Shown here piece after piece: positions 4,862 to 22,743 of a stretch of DNA of 64,000 bases. The stretch is from Aurantiacibacter sp. D1-12 (lineage in GTDB: Bacteria; Pseudomonadota; Alphaproteobacteria; Sphingomonadales; Sphingomonadaceae), in assembly GCF_028858515.1 (NCBI RefSeq), contig NZ_JAPJZJ010000002.1, positions 372,001 to 436,000 of the forward strand, read 5' to 3'. Position numbers and translations under genes: made by a program. Position 1 is the first letter of the stretch. Every line of letters begins with the position of its first letter. The notes under the pieces were generated by a model. The model had not been told where the DNA came from. It worked only from the letters and a program-made list of their open reading frames with translations, and did not search any database.

Positions 4862-4996
4862 CATGATGCTGACATGTGGCATCAGCCCCCGTTCAGGAGA
4901 GGCAGGGCAGCTTTTTCGCAAATTTCCAATCCGGCACGCACAAAGCGTGGCAAATCTGGTATTGGACAACGGACCGATGGTGTGAGGAGGGAACCG

Positions 4997-5839: not shown

Positions 5840-7261
5840 ATGGCGCGACGAGCGGTCGGAATCCGCCGGTTCATCGCCAGAATTTCAGGGTCACGCAGCC
5901 GCGTGGCCACGACCCTGCCCGCCGCTGCCCTTACGCTTGCCATCACCCTGTTTATCGCGCTCTCCGCGGGCGAACCGCTCAATGCGCAAGGCGGATATTC
6001 CTACACCGGTGTCGCGAGCTGCGCAGGTTCAACCTGCCACGGGCGTAGCGAAGGCAATGGCGCCATCGTGCGTCAGGACGAAATCGCCACCTGGCAATCG
6101 CCCAGCGCGGTGAGCGGAGCGCACAGCCGCGCCTACGCCGTGCTTGGCGGGCGGCGCGGGCAGCAGATCGCCGCCTCGCTAGGACTGGGTGACGCGCGTG
6201 AGGCGCCTGCCTGCCTCGGCTGCCATGCGACCTATGCGCCCGGTCCCGAGCGCGGACCACGTTTCCGGCTTGACGATGGCGTTGGCTGTGAAAGCTGCCA
6301 CGGCGCAGCGATTGGCTGGCTTTCGAGCCACTACGAAGTGCGCGGCACGCATCCTGCCAATGTCCGCAATGGCCTGACCCCGCTGGAAGATCCGCAGGCG
6401 CGTGCCCGCGTGTGTCTCGATTGCCATTACGGCAGTACTGATCGCGGGCAATTCGTAACGCATTCGATGATGGCGGCAGGCCACCCGCGCATCACCTTCG
6501 AGCTCGACCTGTTCAGCTCCTTCCAGCAGCACCACGATGTCGACAGCGACTATGTCCAGCGCAAGGGCCGCCCCGATAGCGTGCAGCTGTGGGCCGTGGG
6601 CCAGGCCGAGGCCGTCGCGCGCGCGACTGACCTTTTCGCACGACCCGAGTACGGGCAGGAAGGCGTCTTCCCGCAGCTCTATTTCTACGATTGCCATTCG
6701 TGCCACCGGCCGATCACCGATGGCGAGGAGCGCCGCCTGACGTTCGAGACCAATCCGGGTCGCCCGATCACGTTCGGCCAGCCGCCGTTCAATGATGAGA
6801 ACATCATCATGCTCTCTACCGTGGCCGATGTACTCGCGCCGGGCCGCGCCGACGCTTTCCGCAGCGCCAGCCGCAATTTCCACGATGCGATGGACAATGG
6901 CCGCGCCGACGCGCAACGGGCTGCGATTGCCCTGCGCAGCGAAGCTCAAGCGCTTTCGAGCGCGCTGTCGGGCCGCAACTTCGGGTCGAACGACGCCTTC
7001 ACCATTGTCGCGCGGATCGGCAGCGATGCGACCTCGCCGCGCTTCACCGACTACACCGGGAGCGTGCAGGCGGTGATGGCCATCGACACGCTCCTCAATG
7101 CACTCGTCACCGATGGTCGGGTGACCACGGGTGCCGCAGCAGGCATCCGCGCGAACCTCAACCGTGCCTACGTCGCCGTGCGCAGTCCCAATGGGTACCG
7201 CCCCGCGCAGTTCCGCGAGGCGCTTGGCGATGCGGTCAGTGCGATTGGACGCTTGCGATAA
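5840..7261 (+). CDS. Periplasmic pentahaem cytochrome c (c554-like)
   Basis: The 473-residue protein starts at an ATG behind AAGGGGGGAATCATC. An Arg-rich N-region and a hydrophobic stretch at about 24-43 ending in LNAQ give a signal peptide. Five haem-attachment sites are visible: an unusual CX4CH site at C61-H67 (CAGSTCH), then CXXCH at C125, C150, C192 and C285. The order and spacing recall the cytochrome c554 / multihaem family. The region after about 330 is helical and lacks haem motifs. It is the first gene of a coupled operon with a GlcG-like lipoprotein, a beta-barrel and a decahaem protein, so a periplasmic electron shuttle is the likely role. Its stop codon (TAA) overlaps the next start by one base. 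Confidence 0.85.
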   Translation: MARRAVGIRRFIARISGSRSRVATTLPAAALTLAITLFIALSAGEPLNAQGGYSYTGVASCAGSTCHGRSEGNGAIVRQDEIATWQSPSAVSGAHSRAYAVLGGRRGQQIAASLGLGDAREAPACLGCHATYAPGPERGPRFRLDDGVGCESCHGAAIGWLSSHYEVRGTHPANVRNGLTPLEDPQARARVCLDCHYGSTDRGQFVTHSMMAAGHPRITFELDLFSSFQQHHDVDSDYVQRKGRPDSVQLWAVGQAEAVARATDLFARPEYGQEGVFPQLYFYDCHSCHRPITDGEERRLTFETNPGRPITFGQPPFNDENIIMLSTVADVLAPGRADAFRSASRNFHDAMDNGRADAQRAAIALRSEAQALSSALSGRNFGSNDAFTIVARIGSDATSPRFTDYTGSVQAVMAIDTLLNALVTDGRVTTGAAAGIRANLNRAYVAVRSPNGYRPAQFREALGDAVSAIGRLR

Positions 7262-9252
7262 TGCGCTGGAGGCGAGCGACTGCTCTACTGTCAGCCAGCG
7301 CGCTGGTGCTGGCGGGATGCGGCGGTGGCGGCGATGGCGGGCAGAACGGCAGCGGCAACGTGGTCGTGCCCACGCCAAGCCCCACGCCTCCGCCATCAGG
7401 CCAGCTGTTCACCCCGCCCGCGCAGGAATTTCTAACCAGCGCTGATGTGCAGACAGTGATCGCGCAGGCGGTTGCAGAAGCGCAGAACCGCAACCTGCCC
7501 TCGATAATCGCGGTGACGGATCGCGTGGGCAATGTGCTTGCGGTGTTCGCGATGAACGGCGCGCCGGATATGACCGCGCTCAGCCGCCAGCAGATCGGCG
7601 GTATGGCAGCGATGGGAGACGAGATCGGCCTGCAAGGCGCGATGGTGCCGAGCACCACCGCTGCCATCGCCAAAGCGATAACGGGTGCCTACCTCTCGAG
7701 CAGCGGCAATGCGTTTACCAGCCGCACGGCGAGCATGATCGTGCAGGAACACTTCCCGCCTGCGCCGACGACTGTAGGACTGGAAAGCGGGCCTTTGTTC
7801 GGCGTGCAGTTCAGCCAGCTGCCCTGCTCTGACCTGTCCGCACGCGCGAGCGACGGGATGATCGGACCCAAGCGATCACCGCTCGGGCTCTCTGCCGATC
7901 CGGGCGGCTTGCCACTCTACAAGAACGGCGTGGTCGTCGGCGGCATCGGGATCATGGGCGATGGCGATTACGGCTTCGATCCCAACATTCTTGATGTCGA
8001 GAACGACACGGAAGAAGCCATCGCGCTTGCCGGGGCGCAGGGCTTCATGGCCCCGACCGACATCCGCGCAAACCGCATTTTCGTGGACGGAACCGCGCTG
8101 CGCTTCACCGACGTGACCGAGGCGCAGATCGCGGGCGGCGGAGGCAATTTTGCCGCGATCAACGGCACGGCGGGCAATCTCGTCGCGGTGACCGGATATA
8201 CCGATGGCATGCTGCGCGCTGGCACGGCCTATGGCACCGAAGCCTCGGGCATCCGCGCCTCGACGCCGGGCGAGTTCTCCAACCGTGACGCATGGGTTCT
8301 GACAGATGGTGCGGGCACGCCGCGCTATCCCATCCGCGCCGGCACCGATGCGGGCAGCGTCGCCCAGCCGCTCAGCGCCGCTGAAGTACGCGCGATCCTC
8401 GAAGAGGCGTTCACGATCCTGAGCCGCGCGCGTGCGCAGATCCGCCGTCCACTCGACAGCCGGATGCAGGCGAGCATCAGCTTGGTCGACACGCATGGCG
8501 AAGTGCTCGGCATTGTCCGCTCGCCGGACGGGCCAATCTTCGGCGTCGATGTGAGCTTGCAAAAGGCGCGCACCGCCGCGTTCTTCTCCAATCCCGCGGC
8601 TGCCGCAGATTTGACCCCCATCGCCGCTCCGCCTGGCGGGCTTTCAGGCGCCGACTACGTCAATCGCGTGCGCAATTTCCTCGGCGATCCCAACGCGCTC
8701 ACCGGTAATTTCGCCTTTGCAGACCGCTCCGGCGGCAACCTCTCGCGGCCCTACTTCCCGGATGGTGAAGTGAGCGCGGTGGCAGGGCCGCTGTCAGTGC
8801 AAGTGCCCAACACTTTCAGCCCCTTCGCTGTGGGCCTGCAGACCGATCTCATCGTTCCGAATGTCGGCGCGCACCTGAATTTCGTCGCCGGGCTATCGCC
8901 GAACGACACCCCGCGCGGTTGCACGCTCGCGCCTAATTCACCGTCGGGCGCGCCGCGCATCGCCAACGGCATCCAGATCTTCCCCGGCTCTGTCCCGATC
9001 TATCGTGGCGGCGAGCTCGTGGGCGGCATCGGCGTTTCGGGAGACGGGATTGATCAGGATGACATGGTCAGCTTCCTTGGCCTACATAATGCGGGCCTTC
9101 GCGTGGGCGGCATCGGTAATGCCGATCCGGCGATCCGCGCCGACCGAATTGTCGTGAACGTCAACGGGCGCAATGTCCGGCTTCGCTATGTCAATTGCCC
9201 CTTCGCGCCGTTCCTCGATACGGACACACAAAACGTGTGCCAGGGCCTTTGA
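7261..9252 (+). CDS. Lipoprotein with two GlcG/HbpS-like (DUF336) domains
   Basis: The 663-residue product has a lipoprotein signal: Arg-rich start, hydrophobic stretch, lipobox LAGC with the lipid cysteine at residue 20. A glycine/proline linker follows. Two copies of a GlcG/HbpS-type fold can be read: one from about 58 (VIAQAVAEAQNRNLPSIIAV, then VTDRVGNVLAVFAM) and one from about 378 (ILEEAF..., then SLVDTHGEVLGIVRSPDG). Each is followed by the family GGIGI/GGIGVSGDG turn. HbpS-type proteins bind haem; here haem binding or a structural role on the outer-membrane inner face is an inference from the family and the cytochrome operon. Start and stop overlap both neighbours (TAATG and TGATG). 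Confidence 0.75.
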   Translation: MRWRRATALLSASALVLAGCGGGGDGGQNGSGNVVVPTPSPTPPPSGQLFTPPAQEFLTSADVQTVIAQAVAEAQNRNLPSIIAVTDRVGNVLAVFAMNGAPDMTALSRQQIGGMAAMGDEIGLQGAMVPSTTAAIAKAITGAYLSSSGNAFTSRTASMIVQEHFPPAPTTVGLESGPLFGVQFSQLPCSDLSARASDGMIGPKRSPLGLSADPGGLPLYKNGVVVGGIGIMGDGDYGFDPNILDVENDTEEAIALAGAQGFMAPTDIRANRIFVDGTALRFTDVTEAQIAGGGGNFAAINGTAGNLVAVTGYTDGMLRAGTAYGTEASGIRASTPGEFSNRDAWVLTDGAGTPRYPIRAGTDAGSVAQPLSAAEVRAILEEAFTILSRARAQIRRPLDSRMQASISLVDTHGEVLGIVRSPDGPIFGVDVSLQKARTAAFFSNPAAAADLTPIAAPPGGLSGADYVNRVRNFLGDPNALTGNFAFADRSGGNLSRPYFPDGEVSAVAGPLSVQVPNTFSPFAVGLQTDLIVPNVGAHLNFVAGLSPNDTPRGCTLAPNSPSGAPRIANGIQIFPGSVPIYRGGELVGGIGVSGDGIDQDDMVSFLGLHNAGLRVGGIGNADPAIRADRIVVNVNGRNVRLRYVNCPFAPFLDTDTQNVCQGL

Positions 9253-11264
9253 TGGAGACTGCGCTCGCCTTGATCCTCGCCCTTCAGGCTCAGGACGCAC
9301 CACCGCCGCAAGACGTGTCCCGCGATCCAGAGACGGAGGAAGAGCAGGCACAAGACCGCCCCGATGGCGGTTTGGGCACGCAGGTCGATCCGGCAGAGCC
9401 CGTCGATCCCGAAATCATCGATGGCCGCCGCCGCCCGGGCTTTGTCGGCGATCTTCCAGATCCGGTAACGCAGGATAATCCGGGCGCAGTGCGCGCACCG
9501 CCGCCACAGGCGTTCCCAATTGACCAGATACCTGTCCCTGATCGCTGGCGGCTCATCCAGACGCTGGGCATCGTCGAGGAAGATCCCTTCGATCCGTACA
9601 ACCAGAACACCTACAAGGGTGACCGCCCGATCTGCATCAATTCGGACGAGGAGCGCGAGTATCGTGCGGGGCTTCGTGAAGCGGCCGAAGAGGAAGAACG
9701 CGACCTCGCCCGCATTGAGAACCGGGCCTACGATCCTGATCGCGTCGCCTACCCCTACGGTTCGGACGAATGCTGGACCCCGCGCTTCCTCGGGCTGGAG
9801 GGCAATGACTGGTTCTTCGTGGTCAATGCAATCTCAGACACGGTGTTCGAACCGCGCACCTTCCCGATTCCCGTGGGCGTGCAGACGACCGAGGACCCGG
9901 ACCGGATCGACGTTTTCGGCAACGATTTCTCGCCCGTCCTATCGCAGACCTTCATCCTTGGTGCGGCGCTGATCAAGGGTTCGACCGCCTACAAACCACC
10001 CGATGTCGAGTATCGCCTGACGCTCGCCTATAACATCAACTACGTCGACGTGCCCGAGCGGCGCGTGCTGCTGGTCGAGCCAAGCCGCGACAGCAACCGA
10101 CTCGACGATTTCCTCGGCGTGCAGGAAGCCTTTTTCGACTATCACATCCGCAACACTAGCGAGCGGTACGACTTCGACAGCTTCCGTATCGGCATCCAGC
10201 CGTTCCAGGCCGATTTCCGCGGCTTCTTGTTCAACGACAGCCAGCTTGGCCTGCGCTTCTTCGGCACGCGGGATAACAACCGCTTCCAGTACAACCTGGG
10301 CGCGTTCTGGCGGTTGGAGAAGGACACCAATTCGGGCCTGAACGACATCACGCAGACGCCGCGCAGCGATTTCGTGTTTGTCGCCAATGCCTACCGTCAG
10401 GACTTCCTGATCCCCGCGCTCACAAGCCAGTTCACACTCGTCTACAACATGAACCGCGAAGGCGGCGACGTGGAGATTGACGACAACGGTTTCCCTGTGC
10501 GCCCGGCCTTGTTGGGTGATCTGCGCGGACGCGATTACGATGTGGTCTACGTCGGCTACAACGCCGATGGCCGTATCGGTCGTATCAATGTGACCGCAAG
10601 CATCTACGGCGCCTTTGGCGAGGACCGCAATTCGATCTTCACCAGCGAGCCCGCAGAGATCCGCGCGTTCTTCGGCGCAGCAGAGCTGAGCTACGACCAG
10701 GACTGGATGCGCTTCCGCCTCTCCGGCCTGTTCGCGAGCGGCGATTCCGATCCGTTCAACAATGTCGAAGGTGGGTTTGATGCGATCTTTGAAAACCCCG
10801 TGTTTGCCGGAGCTGACACGTCATACTGGATGCGCCAGACCATTCCTTTTGCCGGCGGTGGCCGCGCGATCAGCCTGAATGGTCGCAATGGTCTCCTGAA
10901 CTCGCTGCGCAGTTCCAAGGAGCAGGGGCAGAGCAACTTCAACAATCCCGGCCTGATCCTGGGCGGTGTGGGCGCGGACTTTGATCTGACGCCCGAATTC
11001 CGCCTGACCGGCAACGCCAATTATCTGCGGTTCGAGGATACGAGCGTGCTCGAAACGCTGCGTGTCGAGGGCACGATCCCCGAGGAGATCGGCTACGACG
11101 TGTCGCTTTCCGCCATCTGGAGGCCGCGCGCCAACCAGAACCTCGTATTCCGCCTTTCGGGCGCGGCGCTGATCGCGGGTGACGGGTTTCAGGACCTGTT
11201 CGACAATCGCGGGGGTAACAACGTCTACTACTCTGTCCTCGCCAATGCGGTGCTGACCTACTGA
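9252..11264 (+). CDS. Outer-membrane beta-barrel protein of the cytochrome operon
   Basis: The 670-residue product begins with a short hydrophobic signal (METALALILALQAQ) followed by an acidic, proline-rich linker to about residue 95. The rest shows alternating aromatic/polar strands with Asp/Asn-rich turns, and the chain ends VLTY, the aromatic C-terminus of outer-membrane barrels recognised by BamA. No plug domain or TonB box was seen, so it is more porin-like than a TonB receptor. A barrel encoded between a periplasmic cytochrome and a decahaem protein recalls porin-cytochrome conduits, in which the barrel sheathes a multihaem protein; that function is inference. The start (TGATG) overlaps the upstream stop, favouring this ATG over one 57 bases upstream. 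Confidence 0.7.
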   Translation: METALALILALQAQDAPPPQDVSRDPETEEEQAQDRPDGGLGTQVDPAEPVDPEIIDGRRRPGFVGDLPDPVTQDNPGAVRAPPPQAFPIDQIPVPDRWRLIQTLGIVEEDPFDPYNQNTYKGDRPICINSDEEREYRAGLREAAEEEERDLARIENRAYDPDRVAYPYGSDECWTPRFLGLEGNDWFFVVNAISDTVFEPRTFPIPVGVQTTEDPDRIDVFGNDFSPVLSQTFILGAALIKGSTAYKPPDVEYRLTLAYNINYVDVPERRVLLVEPSRDSNRLDDFLGVQEAFFDYHIRNTSERYDFDSFRIGIQPFQADFRGFLFNDSQLGLRFFGTRDNNRFQYNLGAFWRLEKDTNSGLNDITQTPRSDFVFVANAYRQDFLIPALTSQFTLVYNMNREGGDVEIDDNGFPVRPALLGDLRGRDYDVVYVGYNADGRIGRINVTASIYGAFGEDRNSIFTSEPAEIRAFFGAAELSYDQDWMRFRLSGLFASGDSDPFNNVEGGFDAIFENPVFAGADTSYWMRQTIPFAGGGRAISLNGRNGLLNSLRSSKEQGQSNFNNPGLILGGVGADFDLTPEFRLTGNANYLRFEDTSVLETLRVEGTIPEEIGYDVSLSAIWRPRANQNLVFRLSGAALIAGDGFQDLFDNRGGNNVYYSVLANAVLTY

Positions 11265-14200
11265 TGCTGAAGCGCTTCGCCTCTCGCCACGTGATCCCGG
11301 TCATGTTCATCGCCGGAGCCGCGCTGATGGGCGGAGGATCACTGCTGGCCGCCGAAGGATATGAGACCGCGGTGGAGCGCGATTACGAGGCGGCAGGCGT
11401 GATCGCCCCGCCCGCTCCGCAGAACCAGACGCAGGCAGAGGCTGATGCCAAGTCCGCAGGTTGTAACAGCTGCCATGTGCAGACCGATGCGCCGACCATG
11501 CATGTGTCCGATGCGGTGGTGCTCGGCTGTATTGATTGCCACGGCGGTAATGCTGAAGTCTTCGGAGATCCTTCGCTCGGTTTCGATGCCGAGGAATACG
11601 TGCTGGCGCGTGAGGCGGCGCACGTACTGCCCACTTACCCTGACAGCTGGCACTATCCGTCGAGCGCCAATCCCGAACGCAGCTATTCGCTGCTCAACCG
11701 CGAAGACCCGATTTTCATCCGCTTCGTGAACCCCAGCGATTACCGCGTGGCGCGCGAGGCCTGCGGATCGTGTCATATGCCGGTGATCGAAGCCGCGGAG
11801 CGAAGCCTGATGGCGACGGGCGCCATGCTGTGGGGCGGCGCGGCCTACAACAATGGCATCCTGCCCTATAAGAATTATGTGCTGGGAGAGGCCTACACCC
11901 GCGACGGCGAAGCGGCGATGATCCTTTCGCCGAGCGACGACGGCGAGCACGGCACGGTGACCGAGGAACAGGCCGAGCGCGGCGCGCTGGGTGCAATGTA
12001 TCCGTTGCCGACATGGCAGGTCGTCCCTCCCGCTGATGTCTTCCGCGTGTTCGAGCGCGGCGGGCGCACGATCAACACCCAATTCCCCGAGATCGGCATT
12101 CCCAACCCGACCGGTCAGATCCAGCGGCTAGAAGAACCGGGACGGCCCGATCTGCGCCAGTCCAACCGTGGTCCCGGCACCGGCCTGCGCGCCGCCATTC
12201 CTGTGCTCAACATACACAAGACGCGGCTCAACGATCCCTTCACCTGGTTCATGGGCACCAATGACCAGCCCGGCGACTATCGCCATTCGGGCTGCGCAAG
12301 CTGCCACGTAATCTACGCCAATGATCGCGAGCCGCGCCACTCGCTGATCTACGCGCAATATGGCCGCGACGGGCAGACGGTGACGGTCGACCCGACCATC
12401 GCCAGCCAGATCCAACGCCTGCACGATGACTACGGCGATCATGGCGACGCGCACAGTGATGAAGAGCACGCTTACGATGAGGGCGGCCACGGCGACCTGA
12501 TCCAGCCGCATGACGAGGCTCTCGGCGAAGACGACCATACCGAGGGGGACGGCTGGGCCCCCGATGATCGCGAACGCGGCCACCCGCTGCGCCACGTGTT
12601 CACCCGCGCCATCCCAACAGCGCAGTGCATGAATTGTCATATGCACCAGCCCAACATCTTCCTGAATTCGTACCTCGGCTACACCATGTGGGATTACGAG
12701 AGCGATGCGCCGGTGATGTGGCCGGGTCCGGAAAACACCGCCCCGCGCCCGCCGGGGATGAGTGATGAAGAATACGAGGAAATGTTCCTCCGCCAGCGTT
12801 ATCCGACTGCCGAGGAAGTGCGCGCCGTGCTTGATCGCAACCCCGAAGGAGCAGCTCCGCGCGGGCTGTGGGCGGACCTCGATTTCCTGCGCAACGTCTA
12901 CGATCTGAACGCGGTGCTGGAAGACACCCAGATGGCCGATTACCACGGCCACGGGTGGAACTTCCGCGGCATCTTCCGGCGTGATCGGGAGGGCAATCTG
13001 CTCGACGCCGATGGTGAGATCATCCGCCCCTCGAACGAAAGCGACACGCCCGAAGAGGCCGCGCGGCACGATGACCGCTGGCGCCAGCGCTTCCGCCGCG
13101 ATGGAGAGGAGCAGTTCGTCCAGCCCGGCACCAACCCGGGTGAAGCCGTGCACATGATGAGCATCCATGCCGAAAACGGCATGCAGTGCGCCGACTGCCA
13201 CTACGCGCAAGACAGCCATGGCAACGGGCTGATCTACGGCGAAGTCGCCAACGCTATCGAGATCGGCTGCAAGGATTGCCACGGCACGGCGGACGAATAT
13301 CCGACCTTGCGTACCTCCGGCCCCGCCGCGCCGCCCGAGGGCCATGACCTCACCCTGCTGCGCAACCCCGACGGTCGCCGCCGGTTCGAATGGGTCGAGA
13401 ACACCAACGGCAGCCGCACGCTGATCCAGCGCTCGATTGTCGATCCCTCGCTCGAGTGGGAAGTCAGCCTGGTGCGTGACAGCGTCGATCCCGCCTCGCC
13501 CGATTTCAACGCTCTCTCGGCCCGGTCCAAGCTGATGAGCGCCGACGGTGCTGAAACCGGCGAGTTCGGCTTTGGTCCGGGCGTGGCAGTGGAAGACCGC
13601 GCACATGGCGAGCAGGAGATGGCGTGCTTCACCTGCCACCTCTCGTGGACCACCTCATGCGGCGGGTGCCACCTGCCTATCGAGGCAAACTGGCAGAGCG
13701 AAGTCCACCGCTATGAAGGCGAGACGACGCGCAATTTCGCGACCTACAACCCGCAGGTCGCACGCGACCAGATGTTCCAGCTGGGCATCCACCAGACGAC
13801 CAAGGGCAATCAAGTTGCTCCGGTCCGCTCGACCAGCGCGCTGGTGCTGAGCTCCACCAATATCAACCGCGAGCGGATCTATATCCAGCAGCCGCCAGTC
13901 AGCGCCGCAGGCTTCTCCTCCCAAGCCTTCGCGCCGCATTTCCCGCACACCGTCCGTCTGACCGAGACCAAGCAGTGCTCTGACTGCCACCTGTCCGAAG
14001 CCGAGGACAACAACGCGATCATGAGCCAGCTGTTGCTGCTTGGCACGAACTTCGTGAACTTCGTCGGCATGCATGCATGGACCGGCCTTGAAGGCGGATT
14101 CGAAGCGGTGCGCGTGACCGAGTGGGAAGAACCGCAGGCGGTGCTCGGCTCCTACCTCCACCGCTACGCCTACCCTGACTATTACCGCTACCATGTCGAA

Positions 14201-15517: not shown

Positions 15518-15777
15518 GCAAGATGCTCGACAAAGTGCTGGACTTCGAGGAGCGCTGGGGCAACTGGACCACCGTCGTTCTCGGTGTCTGGTTCTGGCTT
15601 GGCATTGCGGTCTACGCGCGCTTTATCACCCTACCCGACATTCCGCTGATCAATGAGCAGGCGATCTTCTTTTGGGGATCGGTCGCTTTCAACGCGATCT
15701 GGTGGGGCTTTGCGAGGCCCGCGTTGCAGAACCGAAAAGCTGCGCGCGAAAAGATCGAGCCGCCAAAGGGCGACTAA
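15514..15777 (+). CDS. Small two-helix membrane protein of the cytochrome operon
   Basis: The 87-residue protein has two hydrophobic segments (about 20-37 and 48-66) separated by a short loop, with a basic C-terminal tail, which suggests an inner-membrane hairpin with both ends in the cytoplasm. The GTG at 15514 overlaps the stop of the decahaem gene (GTGA) and is eight bases from GGAGG; an in-frame ATG nine bases later would be too far from that site. The stop overlaps the convergent phosphodiesterase gene. I do not recognise the family; a role as an assembly or anchoring subunit of the cytochrome system is only suggested by position. Confidence 0.6.
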   Translation: MSKMLDKVLDFEERWGNWTTVVLGVWFWLGIAVYARFITLPDIPLINEQAIFFWGSVAFNAIWWGFARPALQNRKAAREKIEPPKGD

Positions 15778-16634
15778 CCCGTCCCCTTCTCGCGCTCCAT
15801 TTCGCGGATCATCGGCTGCAGATGCGGGCCGTAGTTGGCGATCACTTCCCAATCGCTCACGCGTTCGTAATGGCTCACCAGGCTCGTGCCATCCCAGCGG
15901 TGTAGCGCATAGGTGGGCGGCTCCGTAGTGATCAGCGGGCGACTGTCGGGCTTGTCCGAGCTGATCGCGCGCAGGTCCATCGACACAAGCGGCGCGACAG
16001 AAGGCGTCACCGAAACCGGGATGCCGCAGAACTGGCCCACAATCTGGCGGTGCAAATGCCCGCAGTGGATCGCAAGCACCTGATCGCTGCGACCTTCGAG
16101 CGCGCTGGCGAGATTGGCGATCCATTGCTCGGACGGGTCGGGGTCCATCCATTCAATACCTGAGACAATCGGCGGGTGGTGCATGAAAATGACCGCAGGC
16201 GTGCCCTCGTGCTTGGCAAGCGTCGCGGCCAGCCAGTCGCGGCGTTTTTCGCAGAAGGCACCGCCGTGCCGCCCCGGCTCCAGCGTATCGAGCATGACGA
16301 CCAGCAGCCCCTCCTGCACGAAGGCGGATTGGACAAAGCCGTTTTCATCGGTGGCGGTATCGGGGAAAGCGTGCAGCAGTTCCTCGCGCGTATCGTGATT
16401 GCCGACCAACGCTTTGACCGGGAACGGGCATTGGCTGAGCATCTCCGCCGTGCGCGCAAAACTCTCGCGATCCCCGCGGTCGGTGATGTCGCCCGTCACC
16501 AGCAGCATGTCGACCGGATTGGGCTGCGCGAACAGGCGATCGAGCGTGGCACGAAAGCGCGTGCGGTTCAGCTCTTCGGGCTTCGCATCCGGGTCAAAGC
16601 CGATGTGAACATCGGTGATCTGCGCAATCAGCAT
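15774..16634 (-). CDS. Class III phosphodiesterase / calcineurin-like metallophosphoesterase (CpdA-like)
   Basis: All five metal-site motifs of class III cyclic-nucleotide phosphodiesterases are present in 286 residues: DVH (D8, H10), GDITDRGD, GNHD, FMHHPP and the final CGHLH. Length and the opening AQITDVHIG match the CpdA/Icc type, which hydrolyses cAMP in the cytoplasm. It is the last gene of the minus-strand operon that begins with the cNMP-binding oxidoreductase, starting two bases after the FHA-cytochrome stop. Placement beside a protein with two cNMP-binding domains makes a cyclic-nucleotide substrate attractive, but the family also contains enzymes acting on other phosphodiesters. 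Confidence 0.8.
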   Translation of the reverse strand: MLIAQITDVHIGFDPDAKPEELNRTRFRATLDRLFAQPNPVDMLLVTGDITDRGDRESFARTAEMLSQCPFPVKALVGNHDTREELLHAFPDTATDENGFVQSAFVQEGLLVVMLDTLEPGRHGGAFCEKRRDWLAATLAKHEGTPAVIFMHHPPIVSGIEWMDPDPSEQWIANLASALEGRSDQVLAIHCGHLHRQIVGQFCGIPVSVTPSVAPLVSMDLRAISSDKPDSRPLITTEPPTYALHRWDGTSLVSHYERVSDWEVIANYGPHLQPMIREMEREKGTG

Positions 16635-16636
16635 GG

Positions 16637-18376
16637 CTAACGCTCCCGTCTGGCAATACGCGGCGGCGCAGCGGCACCGTCGCGATCTCGCGGATGATAG
16701 GAATGGCACATGGCGCAGCTCGATGGCACCTCTGCCTCCAGCGCGGTCTCGCCCAGATGGCAATCGCGGCAGCTTTCCAGATCAGGCAGCAGCAGATCGG
16801 TTGCATTGTCCGACGTGTCGGCAGCGTGGCAGCTGACGCAGGTTTCCTGCCGGTGCGGTTCGTGATCGAACCAGCCATTCTGGAAATAGCGGGACCGCTG
16901 GACGATCGGATGCACCGCCAGCCCGCCCGTGGGGTTGGTATCGCGATAGTGGCACTCCCCGCACACGCCTTCATCTGACAACGCATTGCCCAGCGTCGGC
17001 AGCGTGACGCGGCTGAAATTGCCATAATAGATCCCGCCCTCGGCATAGGGGCCGGGCCGTTGACGACCGGTGCTGACCGGGCGACGCGGCGCGCGGTCGG
17101 CGGCGAGCAGATCGGCCTGCACCTGCTCGATATCGCCGTGGCTCAGCGAGCGGAAAGTGCTGCCCACCTGATCGTAAACGAGGCTGTGACAGCTCTCGCA
17201 GCTTTGCTCCATATCGACCGGCAGGAAGCGCACGCCATCCGCCGTCGGAGTGTGGCAGGCGCTGCACTCCATCGCGCCGTCCTCGCTCATGTCCCATTCG
17301 CCCAGCCGCATCGCCATGCGGGCAACGCCGTTGGTGGTGGAAAGGTGCATGTCGTGCGGGAATTTCAGCCCGTTGAAGTCGCGCGTGTCACTCGCCAGCT
17401 CCACCCGAGCCTCTTGTCCACCGCGCTCTGGCAGAACAAGCGTCTGGAACTGCGGGTGGCCCGTGCCGAAATCATGCGCGTTGCCGAGTTCGGTGTCGGT
17501 CAGGCGCGTATCGAGCGTGTCATGGCAATCGGCGCAGAAGGCTTGCGATGTCGGCTCCATCCGGCCCGCGCCTTCGTGCTCAGTATGGCAATCGGTGCAG
17601 GCGCCCGGTCCCGGTTTGTTAAACGCGTGCGCGACTGACCAGAGGAAGGCTTCTCCGCCGGAAAACTCGGGCATTCCTGCAACCAGGCGATCTCCTTCGG
17701 CGTGATCGCCCAGCCCTTCGTGGCACGTCAGGCAGGCATTGTCTGTCACTGCAACGAAGGGCTGCGTGTGGCATGACTCGCAGCTATCTTCGAGGCCGTG
17801 GTGCACGCTCGAGAGCGCTCCAGTTGACCAGGCCGCATCCATCAGCACCACGCCTTCCCCTTCCACGCTCGGTTCTGCGACCGGCGCGCGAGTAAGATGC
17901 GACACAATGGGTATGGCGAGAAATGCCACGATTATGGCTATCAGCCCTGTCCAGGCCATCGCGCGCTTGCCGGGCATGGTGCCGGTCAGGCCAAAACCGG
18001 CCAATCGGTCCTTTGCCTCTCCGTCATCGCCTTCAGCCTTGCGCTGGGTGAGCGTGAGCAACCCCTCGTCGTCCTGCCCGATTTCCAGCAGGTAGGAACC
18101 GACACCCAGCTCCCCGCCCTTGGCAGGGTCGATTGTGGCCGATTCCACCGATACGCCATCGTGGGTGAAGCCGAGTGTTCCCGCAGCCACGGCCTCCAGT
18201 CGGCCGCTGGCATTGCGGGTGATGGTAATATGATGCTGCTCGATAGCGAGATCGGGCAGGTGCACCGTGTTTTCGCTGGCGCGACCGATGGTGACCGCGT
18301 CGACGCTGACATCGCGCTCGCGCACGATCTCGCGGCCGCTGGCGGTGAAGTCGATACTGCGTATGCGGATATCCAT
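16637..18376 (-). CDS. FHA-like domain fused through one membrane helix to a decahaem cytochrome c
   Basis: This 579-residue protein has a cytoplasmic FHA-like domain (about 25-105, with the GR pair at 31-32 and NTVHLPD), a transmembrane helix at about 141-160, and a periplasmic domain with ten CXXCH motifs (CESCH, CLTCH, CTDCH, CADCH, CSACH, CESCH, CGECH, CVSCH, CRDCH, CAMCH). It resembles NapC/NrfH-like or cytochrome c3-type electron carriers anchored to the inner membrane. The FHA serine normally contacting phosphothreonine appears as Glu (IEQHH instead of VSRxH), so phosphopeptide binding is uncertain. The ATG at 18376 sits five bases after AGGGGG; a GTG three bases upstream is less well placed. 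The gene lies between the cytochrome b-like and phosphodiesterase genes. Confidence 0.85.
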   Translation of the reverse strand: MDIRIRSIDFTASGREIVRERDVSVDAVTIGRASENTVHLPDLAIEQHHITITRNASGRLEAVAAGTLGFTHDGVSVESATIDPAKGGELGVGSYLLEIGQDDEGLLTLTQRKAEGDDGEAKDRLAGFGLTGTMPGKRAMAWTGLIAIIVAFLAIPIVSHLTRAPVAEPSVEGEGVVLMDAAWSTGALSSVHHGLEDSCESCHTQPFVAVTDNACLTCHEGLGDHAEGDRLVAGMPEFSGGEAFLWSVAHAFNKPGPGACTDCHTEHEGAGRMEPTSQAFCADCHDTLDTRLTDTELGNAHDFGTGHPQFQTLVLPERGGQEARVELASDTRDFNGLKFPHDMHLSTTNGVARMAMRLGEWDMSEDGAMECSACHTPTADGVRFLPVDMEQSCESCHSLVYDQVGSTFRSLSHGDIEQVQADLLAADRAPRRPVSTGRQRPGPYAEGGIYYGNFSRVTLPTLGNALSDEGVCGECHYRDTNPTGGLAVHPIVQRSRYFQNGWFDHEPHRQETCVSCHAADTSDNATDLLLPDLESCRDCHLGETALEAEVPSSCAMCHSYHPRDRDGAAAPPRIARRER

Positions 18377-18386
18377 CACAGCCCCC

Positions 18387-19253
18387 TCACCAGTAGTAGA
18401 ACACGGAAACGATATGCGCCGTCAGCGCCGCGAGCAGCGCGATAGTGACGGGCACATGGATGTAGAGCCAGACATCGAGCATCGCACGAAGGCGCATCTG
18501 GCGGCGGATCTGGTCCAATTGCGCGCGGCGCTTGCGCAGCAGCGAGACGACCTTGCCAAGCGCTTCATCATGGCCGGACACTCCGAAATGATCGAGCGCG
18601 GCGATGGTGCGACAATTGCGATAGCTGTTCGTCAGGCGCGCGCCGAGGCCGAAATCGAACGGATCCTGCTCCAGCGCGGCGATCACCAGATCAGCATCCT
18701 CGCGCCCCAGCGGCTGCGCGGCATTTTCCAGCTGGCGATCAATCGCGGCGAGCGCATCGAGCATTTCGCCCTTGGTCATTTGCCGCCGGTTGCTGCTGAT
18801 CTCGGCTGGCAGCGTCGCATAGGCAAATATGCCGTAAAGTCCTGAAATGATGACCACCATCATCAGCACCCAGGCGAGCGTGTGGACATTCCAGCCGAGC
18901 TGGAAGCCGGTGTGCAGCGTGCCGATGACGATCAGCGCAAGGCCGAGATAGACATGCGCGCTGGTCCATGCCTTCAGGCTCCAGCGCCCCTCGCTCATAT
19001 TGCGTTTGCGCACACCGAGGAGACTCAGCCACACGATCAGGCCAGCACCGATGGTGCCGAGAGTATAGCCGTACCAGCTGCCGCCATTGTGGCGCGGTTC
19101 GACATCGACGAGGACGTAGCTGAGGATCGCGACGATCGAGATGATCGTTGCTGCCTTCGCCCAGCGCCAGCGGCGATGCTTCAGGAAACTGACGTGGTCG
19201 CTGTCACGGCGCTCCTCATCGAGCGTGAAACGACCTTCGGGAGCGCTAGCCAT
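18387..19253 (-). CDS. Five-helix cytochrome b-like membrane protein
   Basis: The 288-residue protein has five predicted helices: about 35-52, 64-84, 98-118, 123-145 and 264-286. Histidines lie inside or at the ends of helices 3, 4 and 5 (SAHVYLG, TLHTGF, NVHTLAW, YIHVPVT, TAHIVSV), enough to bind two b-type haems in a ferric-reductase/cytochrome b561-like bundle. A cytoplasmic helical domain of about 110 residues separates helices 4 and 5. Between a soluble flavin/Fe-S protein and a membrane-anchored decahaem, it is the obvious transmembrane electron carrier. The start at the fourth residue of the longest frame (ATG 19253) is nine bases from GGGGGG; the first ATG touches that site. Confidence 0.7.
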   Translation of the reverse strand: MASAPEGRFTLDEERRDSDHVSFLKHRRWRWAKAATIISIVAILSYVLVDVEPRHNGGSWYGYTLGTIGAGLIVWLSLLGVRKRNMSEGRWSLKAWTSAHVYLGLALIVIGTLHTGFQLGWNVHTLAWVLMMVVIISGLYGIFAYATLPAEISSNRRQMTKGEMLDALAAIDRQLENAAQPLGREDADLVIAALEQDPFDFGLGARLTNSYRNCRTIAALDHFGVSGHDEALGKVVSLLRKRRAQLDQIRRQMRLRAMLDVWLYIHVPVTIALLAALTAHIVSVFYYW

Positions 19254-19268
19254 TGTCGACATCCCCCC

Positions 19269-21722
19269 TCATTCCACATCCTCGGTCAGTTTGGTGACGG
19301 TTAGGAACTTGTCGGGCGATACGCGGATTGCGGCTCCGGTTGGGCAGGCGCGTACACAGGCAGGGCCACCCTCGATGCCGGAGCACATGTCGCACTTGAT
19401 CGCCTGCTTGGGCTTTTCCGGATCGGCGTGCTGCTTGCGCCAGCCATAGCTTGCTTCGCCCGGCCCCGGCCCGCTGCCGAACAGCAGCCAGCTGATCAGA
19501 GAGGGCTTTTTCGGTGGCACGGCATCCATGCGGATCACCCCGTAGGGGCAGTTGCGCTGGCAATTACCGCAGCCGATGCAGGTTTCGTTGATGAAGACCT
19601 CTCCATCGGGCCCGCGCTGGATCGCGTTGGGCGGGCAATCGGCCATGCAATGCGGATGTTCGCAGTGGCGGCAGCTCGTCGGCACGTGGAGGTGCGCGTA
19701 GGACCGGCCCGCCTCACGGTCGAGGCGCGAAAGGCCATCGTGACTGTCTGCGCAGGCCTTCTCGCAATTGTCGCAGCCGACGCACAGCTTCTCGTCGATC
19801 AGCAGCACGTCGGTCGCTTCGCCGATGCCGTTGTCGACGAGGAATTGCGCAGTTTCGGAATACATGTCCGCCGCCGAGCCGAAGCTGTCCTTGCGCGCTT
19901 CGACAAAGGCGTTAACCTCCCGCCGCCCGCGCATGTCCTCGAGCGCGCGGCCACGCAGGTCGGGCTTCGCATCCATCAGCGCGAGGAACTTGTCGCCCGG
20001 AAAACGCACGACTTCGCTCTTGATCGCGGCTTTCACCGTCGCGGTGCGCGCCGACCCGTCGATCACCGCCATTTCCCCGAAGTAGGAGCCTGCAGGAAGA
20101 TAGGAGAGGAAGACCGGGTGCCCGCCAATACTCTTTTCAACGATCATCGATCCGCGCCGCACGACGAAAATATCTTTGTCATCCGCGCCTTCCTCGACAA
20201 CCACCTGCCCCGCACGAATGTCCATGACTTCGCCCGCATCAACAATCTCGGCCACGTCCGCCTGAGTCAGGCCGGAGCCGAACATCTGCAGAAATTGGCG
20301 TTCGATCGAGATGCGGTTCACCGCGCGGCCCGCACTCGGCACGGTGGCGATCAGCTTGAGCGCGGCATTGCGCGACAGCTCGATAGCCACTAGCGGCTCG
20401 GCCGCCTGAATTGTCGCACCGCGGCGGCGGCCCGAAATCAGCCCGACCTCGCCGAAGATTGAGCCCTGCTCGATAGGCACGGTGATCGAAGGATCGTCCT
20501 CACTCACCTGCACCGCCACCGAGCCTTCGGCGATAGCGAACATGGAAGAGCCTGGCTCGTTCTTGGTGAACACGACTTCGCCCGGCTGGAAGTAGTGCAC
20601 GGTGGAATCGAGCATCAACTCGCGCAGTTGCAGCGGTGAAAGCTCTTCAAAGATGACGACATTCTTCCCGAACACCTCAAGCCAGTCTTCAACCGGGCGA
20701 CGACCCGGCAGGCCAGCAAATTTCTCTTCCAGAATGGGCTGATCGGCGGGTTTGAGATCGGTATTTCCGTGCAGGAACTCGATCACGTCATAGCCCTGGT
20801 TCATGCAGTGCTTGATCAGCGGATATCCCGCCAGCGCACCGATCACATGAACGCCGTTCTTGGTCGTTTCGAACGTAGGCGTCAGCGCGGGATAGGCATC
20901 ACGCTCCTCGCTGGTGAATTCCACCCCGATGGCCTCGACAAAGCCGCGCGGCGGTTTGGAGCCGGTGCGCGCGATAATGCGATCGCAGGGGATGGTGACT
21001 TCGCCGTCGCGGGTTTCAAGAACCAGTTCCCCCGGGCGCGCTTCGATAGGAGAGGTTTCCCGCCGCACATCGATCCGACCGTCAGCCTCTGCTTCTTCGA
21101 GCAGCTTGACGTTGGCTCCCTTGGCGCGGGCAAAACTGTCGCGACGGTTGAGGATCGTCACGCGGTTCGCCTGCGCCGGATCGGCAGCCAAACCCAGCGC
21201 GTTCTCGATACCTGCATCGCCCGAGCCGACCACGGTGATATGCTCGTCAAAATACTCGCCCGGATCATCGAGCTGGTACTGGATATGCGGCAGATCAGCG
21301 CCGGGAATGCGTAGAAGATTGGGATTGCCCTGCGTGCCGATGGCGAGCACCACAGCCTGCGCCTTCACAACGTCGCCGCCCTTGGTTTGCAGAGTAAAGT
21401 CGCCGCTTTCGCCCGTAATCTCGGTCACCTCGGCATTGTAGAGGACACTGACCTTGCCCTCTTCGATCTGCCGGTCCCAGGTGTCGAGAATGACTTCGCG
21501 CTTGCCCGCGTCGAAATCGAGATCACTGCGCAGCACCAGGTTGCTGGGCGTCGCCATCACGTGCTTGCCCTTCTGGTATTTGAAGATCGTATCGGAGAGG
21601 TGATCGGTCTTTTCGATGAGGACGTGGCTCATGCCCAGCGCTGCTGCATGCGCGGCAGCGGAAAGGCCCGCCGGCCCCGATCCGACAATGGCTACCTGAA
21701 CCTGATCCGGCTCTTGCCCCAT
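19269..21722 (-). CDS. Flavin oxidoreductase fused to two cNMP-binding domains and four [4Fe-4S] clusters
   Basis: In this 817-residue cytoplasmic protein, residues about 8-330 form a two-dinucleotide flavoprotein module (GSGPAGL at 14-20, second Rossmann loop GSGDAGIENA near 168), like YpdA/TrxR-type reductases but without a TrxR CxxC disulfide. Two CRP-type cyclic-nucleotide-binding domains follow (about 365-470 and 490-610, each with GE and R-x-A-T phosphate-cassette-like segments: GEVGLISGRRRGAT and GEMAVIDGSARTAT). Residues about 645-800 hold sixteen cysteines in four ferredoxin motifs of the DmsB/NarH type. It probably moves electrons between NAD(P)H and the membrane haems under cyclic-nucleotide control. 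It heads the operon behind CAGGGGGGAAT. Confidence 0.85.
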   Translation of the reverse strand: MGQEPDQVQVAIVGSGPAGLSAAAHAAALGMSHVLIEKTDHLSDTIFKYQKGKHVMATPSNLVLRSDLDFDAGKREVILDTWDRQIEEGKVSVLYNAEVTEITGESGDFTLQTKGGDVVKAQAVVLAIGTQGNPNLLRIPGADLPHIQYQLDDPGEYFDEHITVVGSGDAGIENALGLAADPAQANRVTILNRRDSFARAKGANVKLLEEAEADGRIDVRRETSPIEARPGELVLETRDGEVTIPCDRIIARTGSKPPRGFVEAIGVEFTSEERDAYPALTPTFETTKNGVHVIGALAGYPLIKHCMNQGYDVIEFLHGNTDLKPADQPILEEKFAGLPGRRPVEDWLEVFGKNVVIFEELSPLQLRELMLDSTVHYFQPGEVVFTKNEPGSSMFAIAEGSVAVQVSEDDPSITVPIEQGSIFGEVGLISGRRRGATIQAAEPLVAIELSRNAALKLIATVPSAGRAVNRISIERQFLQMFGSGLTQADVAEIVDAGEVMDIRAGQVVVEEGADDKDIFVVRRGSMIVEKSIGGHPVFLSYLPAGSYFGEMAVIDGSARTATVKAAIKSEVVRFPGDKFLALMDAKPDLRGRALEDMRGRREVNAFVEARKDSFGSAADMYSETAQFLVDNGIGEATDVLLIDEKLCVGCDNCEKACADSHDGLSRLDREAGRSYAHLHVPTSCRHCEHPHCMADCPPNAIQRGPDGEVFINETCIGCGNCQRNCPYGVIRMDAVPPKKPSLISWLLFGSGPGPGEASYGWRKQHADPEKPKQAIKCDMCSGIEGGPACVRACPTGAAIRVSPDKFLTVTKLTEDVE

Positions 21723-21840
21723 ATTCCCCCCTGCCGCCTGTTAAGCACAAAAACAGGGCCAAGGGAAAGGGGGCCATCGCGCTTGCGCCTCTTGGTGACA
21801 TCGTTAGGCTGGTAGCGCGGGAATGAGGGGGACCGCTTCA
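21723..21840. promoter_or_regulatory. Divergent promoter region of the oxidoreductase operon and the TPR gene
   Basis: The 118-base gap must contain promoters for both directions. Each gene has a strong G-run Shine-Dalgarno at its edge (CAGGGGGG for the minus gene, GAGGGGG for the plus gene). No clear operator palindrome was seen here. Confidence 0.5.
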
Positions 21841-22743
21841 ATGGCAGCACTGCGCAAGGGTACCGTCGGGGCAATTATCGGCATCGCGCTGCTGGCAGGC
21901 GTTGTCGGCTGGCGGACGATTGGCACTAGCGATACCGCGAGTGAAGCCGAGGGCGACAGGGCCGGAATGTCCCTCCCGCCAACGCTCGAGCAGATGGCCG
22001 CAAGGGCAGAGGCCGACCCTGACAATGCGCTGCTGTGGCAGGAATACGGGCTGGCGCTGTTCAATTCGGGCCGCTTTGCCGAGGCTGCGGATGCCTATGA
22101 GAGCGCTGTCGAGGCCGATACCGATACAGCCATCCTGTGGTCCTCGCTGGGCGAAGCACGGGTTATGGCGAGCGAAAGCGATCCCATGCCCCAAGCCGCC
22201 GAACGCGCCTTTCGCCGCGCCCTGGAACTGGACCCGACCGATCCGCGCGCGCGCTATTTCCTTGCGGTTGCGCGAGACCTGACCGGCGATCATGAGGGCG
22301 CGATTACCGACTGGCTGGCGCTGCTGGCGGATACACCTCCAGGCGCGCCTTGGGAGACCGACCTTGTCCGCACGATCCAGCAGGTCGGGGCCATCAACGA
22401 GATCGAGGTGGAACAGCGCATCGCCAGCGCAGCGGGCACGCGCGATCTGCTGCCGGCCGAAATGACCGGCGGCATGCCCGGCCCGACGCAGGAGCAGATG
22501 GCCGCAGCTGCCTCCATCGCGCCGGACGAGCAACAAAGCATGGCAGAAGGCATGGTCGCGCGCCTTGCTGCGCGGATTGAAGCCGAAGGCGGCACCGTGG
22601 AGGAATGGGTCATGCTGATGCGCAGTTACAACCAGCTGGGCCGCACTGGAGACGCGCGGCGAGCTCGGGATGCGGCCATTTCGGCGCATCCGGATGCACG
22701 CGAACAGATTGAAAACATGGCGGCAACACTCGGTATCGAGTGA
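21841..22743 (+). CDS. CcmI/CycH-like TPR protein, membrane-anchored
   Basis: The 300-residue protein has one N-terminal helix (about 10-30) and tetratricopeptide repeats from about 55 (ALLWQEYGLALFNSGRFAEAADAY, then AERAFRRALELDPTDPRARY), with a C-terminal helical domain repeating the pattern near 255-290. This matches the C-terminal TPR part of the cytochrome c maturation factor CcmI/CycH, which presents apocytochromes to the haem-ligation machinery. Its position opposite a cytochrome operon supports a role in maturing multihaem proteins, but no other ccm genes are in the window. The ATG at 21841 was chosen because the GAGGGGG site lies after the earlier in-frame ATG at 21823. Confidence 0.65.
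   Translation: MAALRKGTVGAIIGIALLAGVVGWRTIGTSDTASEAEGDRAGMSLPPTLEQMAARAEADPDNALLWQEYGLALFNSGRFAEAADAYESAVEADTDTAILWSSLGEARVMASESDPMPQAAERAFRRALELDPTDPRARYFLAVARDLTGDHEGAITDWLALLADTPPGAPWETDLVRTIQQVGAINEIEVEQRIASAAGTRDLLPAEMTGGMPGPTQEQMAAAASIAPDEQQSMAEGMVARLAARIEAEGGTVEEWVMLMRSYNQLGRTGDARRARDAAISAHPDAREQIENMAATLGIE

Follow-up and report, generated by a model that had tools for sequence, protein, structure and literature searches.

The locus analysed here, part of a 64,000-nucleotide stretch of Aurantiacibacter sp. D1-12 DNA (the window), encodes what on balance appears to be an electron-transfer system of the cell envelope that is linked to NAD(P)H and related as a sister to the predicted PCC4 clusters. 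Its seven-gene core (G-F-E-B-OMB-C-A) would reduce an acceptor at or beyond the outer membrane. A more detailed version, in which a cNMP-gated, NAD(P)H-driven trans-envelope exporter combines a PCC4-like inner module with an outer module of its own and acts as an extracellular reductase of aerobic proteobacteria, is advanced as a tentative possibility. Established envelope electron relays belong mostly to metal-respiring or iron-oxidising bacteria.

Gene content and conservation of the locus

Our analysis agrees with the layout proposed in the first-pass annotation, in which two operons converge and a CcmI-like gene diverges (Table 1). The parts named there were also recovered, with the exception of one; B and the metallophosphoesterase had been overlooked. 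The exception is the small membrane protein, an 87-aa ORF that is probably outside the system because a blastp comparison (1e-5) with the ORFs of at least 70 aa in 61 family loci gave no match to it. B is a member of the core, H is a probable accessory of cytochrome c maturation, and Cpd (SpdA/CpdA-like, with a score under the cut-off) is an accessory of the family that is seldom found elsewhere. The OMB gene most likely starts at 9252 rather than at the first listed start, 9195.

Table 1. Genes of the locus, with positions in the window
Feature	Position	Strand	Remarks
CHASE2-adenylate/guanylate cyclase	2792..4861	+	
A, pentahaem cytochrome, predicted periplasmic	5840..7261	+	4 CXXCH + CX4CH, Cytochrome_C554 family
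B, lipoprotein with HbpS-like domains	7261..9252	+	lipobox by inspection
OMB, outer-membrane barrel	9252..11264	+	18 strands predicted, aromatic residue at C-terminus
C, decahaem cytochrome fused to LVIVD beta-propeller	11264..15517	+	N-terminal hydrophobic segment read as signal peptide
87-aa ORF, single hydrophobic segment	15514..15777	+	no conservation
Cpd, calcineurin-like phosphoesterase	15774..16634	-	Pfam Metallophos 1.4e-16
E, degenerate FHA (N-terminal), one membrane helix, periplasmic decahaem	16637..18379	-	
F, membrane protein, PCC3/PCC4-type inner-membrane protein	18387..19262	-	five helices by hydropathy
G, YpdA-like FAD/NAD(P) module, two cNMP-binding domains, 16 Cys	19269..21722	-	
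H, CcmI/CycH-like TPR protein	21823..22743	+	

The 25 haem motifs previously claimed for the region are distributed between A (4 CXXCH and 1 CX4CH), C (10) and E (10), and their number hardly changes in the family. Among relatives covering more than 80% of the query protein, ten motifs are present in 129 of 130 distinct C proteins (134/135 counting repeated contigs) and in 120 of 123 distinct E proteins (124/127), and the four motifs plus CX4CH in all 97 distinct A proteins (100/100). In 77 of the 80 loci kept for neighbourhood counts, the best-matching segment of C is 53-59% identical to the window protein, and this high conservation would suit a specific catalyst equally with a conduit. A fold search with C returned generic propellers, and the model had pLDDT below 50 over much of the haem part; therefore, no inference was drawn from it. 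A sequence search of the PDB gave no match for C or for OMB. The FHA domain of E is weak and degenerate, under the Pfam cut-off, and the usual phosphothreonine-binding serine of the motif is not conserved in it, which speaks against a canonical phosphothreonine reader.

F, encoded by a single-copy gene in the window's own genome, carries the motifs W99-x3-H103-x13-H117, W265-x3-H269-x13-H283 and SGLYG, with W99, H103, H117, H127, G141, G144, W265, H269 and H283 invariant in 117 of 117 distinct relatives; its two predicted b-haem sites bear out the earlier description of a b-type membrane protein. The 16 Fe-S cysteines ascribed to the flavoprotein were found in G, which matches PF13247, and all 112 distinct relatives share them without exception; they are read as ligands of four putative [4Fe-4S] clusters. 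In the phosphate cassettes of the cNMP domains of G, the Glu and Arg residues are kept in 113 and 114 of 114 relatives, respectively, for one domain, and in 103 and 114 of 114 for the other. The barrel with an aromatic C-terminus was likewise confirmed, the last residue being Y or F in 119/119 distinct OMB relatives. The predicted structure of OMB is AlgE/Occ-like, with AlgE as the top match.

Co-occurrence and synteny

Joint presence in related genomes had been set beforehand as a check, and the result was favourable. In a sample of 296 genomes of the order Sphingomonadales (thresholds of 1e-3 for E and 1e-10 for C), E was detected in 76 and C in 75, and all 75 genomes with C also contained E. 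There was no case of C without E in these 296 genomes, and the sole E genome devoid of C (G145) gave a weak E match (E = 6e-6). This association extends to unlinked genes: judged from positions, 33 of the 75 genomes have E and C on separate contigs or at a distance of over 15 kb, and A, B, OMB and C were found together in each of the 16 separate C neighbourhoods fetched out of those 33. Such unlinked but co-occurring modules offer a clean genetic test.

The second check, synteny, gave a positive answer too, with the core G-F-E-B-OMB-C-A found again in members of the Alpha-, Beta- and Gammaproteobacteria. The neighbourhood counts used 80 of the 593 confirmed C relatives, many of them on short contigs, and C was accompanied there by OMB in 75 loci, B in 63, G in 59, A in 58, E in 58 and F in 56. 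In the sequences compared, the genes thus behave as a single unit. Hosts of C relatives include Haliea, Parahaliea, Duganella, Steroidobacter and sphingomonads, and among the named hosts there are several isolates. The first four genera are presumably aerobic heterotrophs; should our proposal hold, the export of electrons would be widespread among such bacteria. No link to phototrophy emerged, a Photo_RC match being absent from the window genome.

Proposed electron route and its alternatives

In the route that we propose, electrons would pass from NAD(P)H to the FAD of G, through its four [4Fe-4S] clusters to F, and by the two b-haems of F across the inner membrane to E, whose periplasmic decahaem would be tethered to that membrane. 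A would then serve as a periplasmic shuttle between E and an outer-membrane module made of the barrel OMB, the lipoprotein B and the decahaem-propeller protein C, where or beyond which the acceptor would be reduced. Cyclic nucleotides may bind G and gate this electron line, and the CHASE2 cyclase, whose gene neighbours the cluster in 19 of the 61 family loci, is a possible source of cNMP. The order of NAD(P)H, flavoprotein, b-haems and anchored decahaem, suggested in the first-pass annotation, is consistent with the invariant ligands; from there, electrons may continue through the outer membrane. F could also trade electrons with quinone, as is supposed in PMC5566968. If the route is true, its entry point would be a flavoprotein instead of the quinone pool, and, should the exporter reading hold, an undescribed extracellular reductase would be present in perhaps several hundred species.

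The crossing of the outer membrane is the step at which a different explanation may be considered. C could be a periplasmic substrate-binding enzyme, a terminal reductase or oxidase, with OMB admitting a small soluble substrate and no electrons passing the outer membrane. We regard this as unlikely, though several observations would suit it. The barrel is predicted to be 18-stranded and AlgE/Occ-like, C is strongly conserved across classes, and PCC4 is described in PMC5566968 without an extracellular cytochrome. Moreover, export of C by type II secretion, hinted at by T2SS-type genes adjoining the system in ten distinct loci, found no support at the genome level: no type II secretin (GspD) passed the cut-off in the window's genome, and across the 296 genomes it showed no association with the system (37/75 system genomes vs 102/221 others). 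On the other hand, a thin haem wire would be compatible with an 18-strand barrel, and three loci pair a strong F and the E type of this system with a PCC4-like 5-haem cytochrome and porin, of predicted function, in place of B-OMB-C; because of these mixed loci, the outer module looks exchangeable and less like an enzyme dedicated to one task.

Electrons might also flow inwards: an outside donor, Fe(II) or Mn(II) for example, would feed them to C, and A, E and F would relay them to quinone or NAD(P)+. We consider this improbable, as G has an NAD(P)H/FAD module of its own and reduction of NAD(P)+ by high-potential donors needs an energy input, with no obvious supplier among the parts. Many named hosts (Haliea, Parahaliea, Duganella and Steroidobacter) are, moreover, presumably aerobic heterotrophs, as noted above. 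A donor-to-quinone direction is nevertheless what PMC5566968 proposes for PCC3 and PCC4. In addition, a 'Forkhead-associated protein' of Gallionellaceae (cluster 403), which has ten haem motifs and is likened here to E by description only, occurs in 27 of 87 iron oxidisers according to the part of PMC10734462 that deals with it, where it appears as a cluster entry with neither operon nor function. Expression data for PCC3 point both ways, the inner-membrane gene of copy 2 being up in iron-oxidising cells of Sideroxydans CL21 (PMC12442390) and PCC3 being down with Fe(II) in strain ES-1 (PMC8788666). Finally, instead of serving bulk respiration, the haems could report the outer redox state in a redox-signalling or envelope-stress device, with the cNMP and FHA domains, the cyclase and the phosphoesterase acting as a sensor. 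The FHA-like region of E, the two cNMP domains of G with conserved cassettes, the CHASE2 cyclase and the phosphoesterase encoded next to the system in family loci, and the PP2C and FHA neighbours of distant loci (in 11 and 8, respectively) would fit such a device. It is highly improbable, since a sensor would need far less than a complete flavin/Fe-S chain and 25 haem motifs of constant number, the FHA serine is not kept, and the cyclase and phosphoesterase occur in only 4 and 2 of the 80 named loci.

Comparison with known systems

No description of the seven-gene system appeared among the open-access titles and abstract beginnings listed; such loci may be given in the supplementary files of PMC11475568 and PMC5566968. 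In having decahaems and a barrel, it resembles MtrCAB, MtoAB and PioAB as regards a possible way of working. The earlier statement that none of its proteins looks like MtrA/B/C stood insofar as no NCBIfam DmsE/MtrA-type model passed its cut-off (A scored 21 vs 192 bits for TIGR03508); a caveat is needed for E, which exceeds the Pfam cut-off of the MtrC/MtrF domain II/IV model PF22113 (38 vs 30 bits) over 56 residues. The first match of the barrel was AlgE, not MtrB, which was absent from the best 50 PDB structures listed. Barrel fold and family models thus speak against membership in MtrCAB, with the caveat of that one domain in E. The operon of ExtM/ExtN/ExtO, for selenite and tellurite reduction, was rejected as well: C matches these models in part, with 61, 28.5 and 29.6 bits, far under the curated cut-offs of 800, 200 and 200.

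A closer relation is seen with the clusters predicted by He et al. 2017 (PMC5566968). The inner-membrane protein of PCC3 and PCC4 is characterised there by five TM helices, two WX3HX13H motifs and SGXXG, a signature shared by F. PCC3 also has, like this system, a barrel with inner and outer cytochromes; the median of 34 and 21 haems and the porins of up to 42 predicted strands given for it there do not suit a system with an 18-strand barrel and cytochromes of 10, 10 and 5 haems. For PCC4, the same paper lists predicted periplasmic cytochromes of 4, 5 and 10 haems, to which the 4+1, 10 and 10 haems found here do not correspond, and loci that contain an Fe-S protein with PF13247 and another redox gene.

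We fetched 13 of 16 loci with a distant F, and 12 of the 13 were PCC4-like. All 12 encode a G-like Fe-S protein, a 10-haem and a 5-haem cytochrome (the latter incomplete in L243) and a porin, and 11 encode a tetrahaem. PF13247 and cNMP domains are common to G and the Fe-S proteins encoded in three of these loci (L236, L238 and L241). A different NAD/FAD/2Fe-2S protein was present in all three PCC4-like loci scanned, and therefore both types have a flavin module, which is YpdA-like and fused into G here but separate there. Profile comparison by hhalign indicates that E is homologous to the 10-haem cytochrome (prob 99.7, E 5e-27) and A to the tetrahaem (prob 99.05, E 1.9e-18) of these loci; the FHA-like region sits on the decahaem of the present system. 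For C and the 5-haem cytochrome the outcome varied with the sequences used, from prob 9.9 with 15 sphingomonad sequences to prob 72.8 (E 3e-5, 292 columns) with 33 diverse ones. Although both systems have a barrel, OMB gave prob 2.5 and 1.5 against the porin profile, built from the PCC4-like loci and not from the sequences of PMC5566968 itself, and full PCC4 membership was ruled out on the basis of this non-homologous barrel. The system suggested earlier as possibly new is thus not wholly so: the F signature, E and A are shared with PCC4-like loci, and the seven-gene core has an outer module of its own, in which B, the 18-strand OMB and the decahaem-propeller C stand in contrast to a 5-haem cytochrome and porin. 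Most likely, therefore, as far as sequence comparison can tell, the system and the predicted PCC4 clusters are sisters that have homologous inner modules and differ in the outer one.

Gene layout and conserved positions

Two convergent operons and a divergent CcmI-like gene, as claimed in the first-pass annotation, are present in the window; in its list of components the operons stood, two genes had been missed and one listed gene had to be dropped. The CXXCH and CX4CH motifs together number 25, in agreement with its haem count. The 87-aa open reading frame gave no Pfam match, and among the NCBIfam matches listed for the redox proteins all were below the cut-off (e.g. YpdA for G, ExtM/N/O for C).

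Genes of the system in the window, with their domain matches
Gene	Product	Position	Strand	Domain matches
A	pentahaem cytochrome	5840-7261	plus	Pfam Cytochrome_C554
B	HbpS-like lipoprotein	7261-9252	plus	Pfam HbpS-like
OMB	predicted outer-membrane barrel	9252-11264	plus	no Pfam match
C	decahaem with beta-propeller	11264-15517	plus	Pfam LVIVD and cytochrome c3/c7 domains
phosphoesterase		16634-15774	minus	
E	anchored decahaem with FHA-like region	18379-16637	minus	c3/c7 domains; MtrC/MtrF domain over cut-off; FHA below cut-off (0.0055)
F	b-type membrane protein	19262-18387	minus	Pfam: weak b561-type match only
G	flavin/cNMP/Fe-S protein	21722-19269	minus	Pfam pyridine-nucleotide oxidoreductase, cNMP and Fer4 domains
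H	CcmI-like TPR protein	start at 21823	divergent	

Conserved positions were recounted over distinct proteins, as some contigs had entered twice from two collections. Ten CXXCH motifs were found in 129/130 C and 120/123 E proteins, and four CXXCH plus one CX4CH in 97/97 A proteins. The 16 Fe-S cysteines noticed previously in G are kept in 112/112 relatives, the final residue of OMB is Y or F in 119/119, which bears out its aromatic C-terminus, and W99, H103, H117, H127, G141, G144, W265, H269 and H283 of F are retained in 117/117. The phosphate-cassette Glu and Arg of the cNMP domains of G, counted with repeated contigs included, are present in 113/114 and 114/114 for one domain and in 103/114 and 114/114 for the other. 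A hydrophobic segment lies ahead of the first haem of E in 125/126 proteins, and a loose lipobox pattern occurs in 81/115 B proteins. The serine with which FHA domains usually bind phosphothreonine lacks a conserved counterpart in the alignment of E proteins.

Co-occurrence, linkage and breadth

Within 296 genomes of the order, E was present in 76 (E-values up to 1e-3) and C in 75 (up to 1e-10), and every C genome was also an E genome (75/75); the sole E genome lacking C (G145) has a weak, partial E match (6e-6). The two genes are close in 41 of the 75 genomes and separate in 33 (in 15 they share a contig with over 15 kb between them, and in 18 they lie on different contigs, the assemblies sometimes being drafts), one case being undeterminable at a contig end. 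Neighbourhoods of E from 60 of the 76 genomes and one named plasmid region gave 61 family loci. All 61 contain G, F and E, which we call the inner module; 58 of them also carry the phosphoesterase and 55 carry H, and in 40 the fetched stretch includes A, B, OMB and C. In the 16 separate C neighbourhoods fetched (of 33), A, B, OMB and C stand together in every case, with no match to E or F. The joint occurrence and synteny anticipated for related genomes were thus found, E and C being shared by 75/76 E genomes and G-F-E by 61/61 loci. That both modules are retained though unlinked argues for a shared function of the E and C sides. In one locus (L214) gene A is broken into two open reading frames, with full-length matches to B, OMB and C. 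The cluster in Sphingobium herbicidovorans (L021, NZ_CP020539.1) lies on a 0.96-Mb conjugative megaplasmid; in total, C was matched in 12 plasmid records of Sphingobium and in one of Sphingopyxis.

In wider searches, the C profile gave matches in 20 of the 289 class genomes examined, and 17 of these 20 belong to 11 other families; the E profile gave matches in 11 of 299 phylum genomes, six outside the class (two of these weak). In three loci outside the class (L126, L127, L128) the fetched stretch contains G, F and E but none of B, OMB and C, and the inner module may be able to work with other partners there. A scan of named genomes returned at least 594 stretches, of which 593 were relatives; the best 80 were kept, many on short contigs. 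Their hosts include Oceanibacterium hippocampi, Desertibaculum subflavum, Limnobacter alexandrii, Steroidobacter agaridevorans, Haliea, Parahaliea maris, Parahaliea mediterranea, three Duganella, Tahibacter soli and many metagenome bins; bins labelled Vicinamibacteria, Marinimicrobia and Mycobacteriaceae may be misassigned and do not count here as evidence of other phyla. Frequent gene orders among these 80 loci are G-F-E-B-OMB-C-A and F-E-B-OMB-C-A-G, with OMB in 75, B in 63, G in 59, A and E in 58 each and F in 56. The CHASE2 cyclase (4), phosphoesterase (2) and H (1) are so scarce that they are sphingomonad-family accessories outside the core. A small protein of about 150 aa between E and B was seen in 14 of the 80 and in L111, L113, L115, L116, L120 and L123, and most of the bins concerned bear the name Alphaproteobacteria or Rhodospirillaceae; the single protein scanned had no Pfam match.

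Several neighbouring genes recur. Upstream of A (2792-5716) lie the CHASE2 cyclase gene and another gene, for a 280-aa protein without a Pfam match, each matched in 19/61 family loci, whose stretches often stop short of that point. A gene for a ShlB/FhaC-type transporter followed by a 1796-aa open reading frame without a Pfam match (22848-29905) is a possible two-partner secretion pair; on plasmid pMSHV of S. herbicidovorans the cluster is likewise flanked by a ShlB gene together with a hypothetical gene of 6.3 kb. A PP2C phosphatase gene stands beside the operon in L152, L162, L167-L169, L186-L188, L192, L199 and L208, and an FHA protein gene adjoins it in eight distant loci; both might be linked to the FHA-like region of E. 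Genes for an ABC ATPase (Pfam ABC_tran), which presumably resembles CcmA, and for CcmH/CycH-family proteins lie beside it in L147, L154, L159, L163, L170, L176, L189, L197 and others, as expected for a system rich in c-haems.

Predicted barrel and proposed direction of electron flow

In MtrCAB a decahaem sits inside a wide barrel. For OMB, an AlphaFold2 model built from 38 sequences (mean pLDDT 72, the first 130 residues mostly below 50) has 18 long strands as counted from the DSSP list, and Foldseek placed AlgE first (1e-15) and Occ/OprD-type porins next, with no MtrB among the 50 PDB matches listed; an MtrCAB-type arrangement is therefore not supported for OMB, which may instead serve a thinner wire of haems or the passage of a soluble substrate. 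Type II secretion as a route for surface export of C found no general support either: GspD, counted from E-values, was over the cut-off in 37/75 genomes with the system vs 102/221 others, and the window genome gave no such match. Among the distant loci, ten distinct ones have T2SSE or T2SSF family genes next to the operon.

Electrons would pass from NAD(P)H to the FAD of G and its four [4Fe-4S] clusters, then through the b-haems of F to E, and from E by way of A to C at OMB. For the inner-membrane protein (IMP) of the predicted porin-cytochrome clusters PCC3 and PCC4, quinone exchange was suggested in the part of PMC5566968 available. NAD(P)H is the likelier partner of the inner module, since a flavin/NAD protein occurs in the window system as well as in PCC4-like loci; in G, the second motif for nucleotide binding does not suffice to tell NADH from NADPH. 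The main rival explanation makes C a periplasmic enzyme, which its strong conservation would also suit. Inward flow would suit the related PCC3 system, where, according to the available part of PMC12442390, the inner-membrane gene of one copy rose in iron-oxidising Sideroxydans CL21 cells. We prefer outward flow, to which G and the nature of the hosts point.

Relation to PCC3 and PCC4

Among the entries listed from searches of open-access literature, none described the seven-gene system. As far as the accessible parts of the sources go, PMC11475568 covers over two thousand multihaem neighbourhoods, listed in supplements only, and PMC10734462 records, without comment, a ten-haem 'Forkhead-associated protein' in 27/87 Gallionellaceae iron oxidisers. 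PCC3 and PCC4 were proposed by He et al. 2017 (PMC5566968), who describe a five-helix IMP that carries WX3HX13H on its third and fifth helices and SGXXG on its fourth, and that perhaps binds two b-haems. F fits this signature (W99-x3-H103-x13-H117, W265-x3-H269-x13-H283, SGLYG).

The F profile matched 43 of the 289 genomes of the class, 27 strongly (E < 1e-90) and 16 weakly, and all 20 C genomes fall within the 27. We fetched the loci of the seven strong-F genomes that lack C, together with 13 of the 16 weak-F loci. Twelve of the 13 weak-F loci (L234-L245) are PCC4-like, as assigned by fit to the description in PMC5566968 rather than by comparison with its sequences. A G-like Fe-S protein, a 10-haem protein, a 5-haem protein (incomplete in L243), a porin and a separate oxidoreductase family are present in 12/12, and a tetrahaem in 11/12; cNMP and Fer4 as well as NAD/FAD/2Fe-2S domains were found in all three loci checked. 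The remaining one (L233) appears PCC3-like, a 21-haem protein adjoining the IMP.

Profile-profile comparison relates E to the 10-haem protein (prob 99.7) and A to the tetrahaem (99.05), whereas two comparisons of OMB with the porin gave 2.5 and 1.5. For C and the 5-haem protein the probability was 9.9 when 15 sequences were used and 72.8 when 33 were; as an alignment can arise from haem motifs alone, C is possibly but not certainly an enlarged relative of that protein. In three strong-F loci without C (L228, L229, L230) a PCC4-like 5-haem protein and porin adjoin F and E of the window type, with the fused G in two of them; it thus seems that the outer module (B, OMB and C in the window) can be exchanged while the inner module stays common. 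The FHA match of E exceeds the Pfam cut-off in L228 and lies just below it in L229, and in L230 only a related model matched, below its cut-off. Only A, E, F and G were seen in two further loci (L227, L232); the other two (L226, L231) are truncated where their contigs end, and in L226 B lies at that edge. The flavin/NAD protein is fused and YpdA-like in the window system, but separate and of another type in PCC4-like loci. The operon is real and widespread, has a predicted role in envelope electron transfer, and is best filed as a variant of the predicted PCC4-like type with its own outer module.
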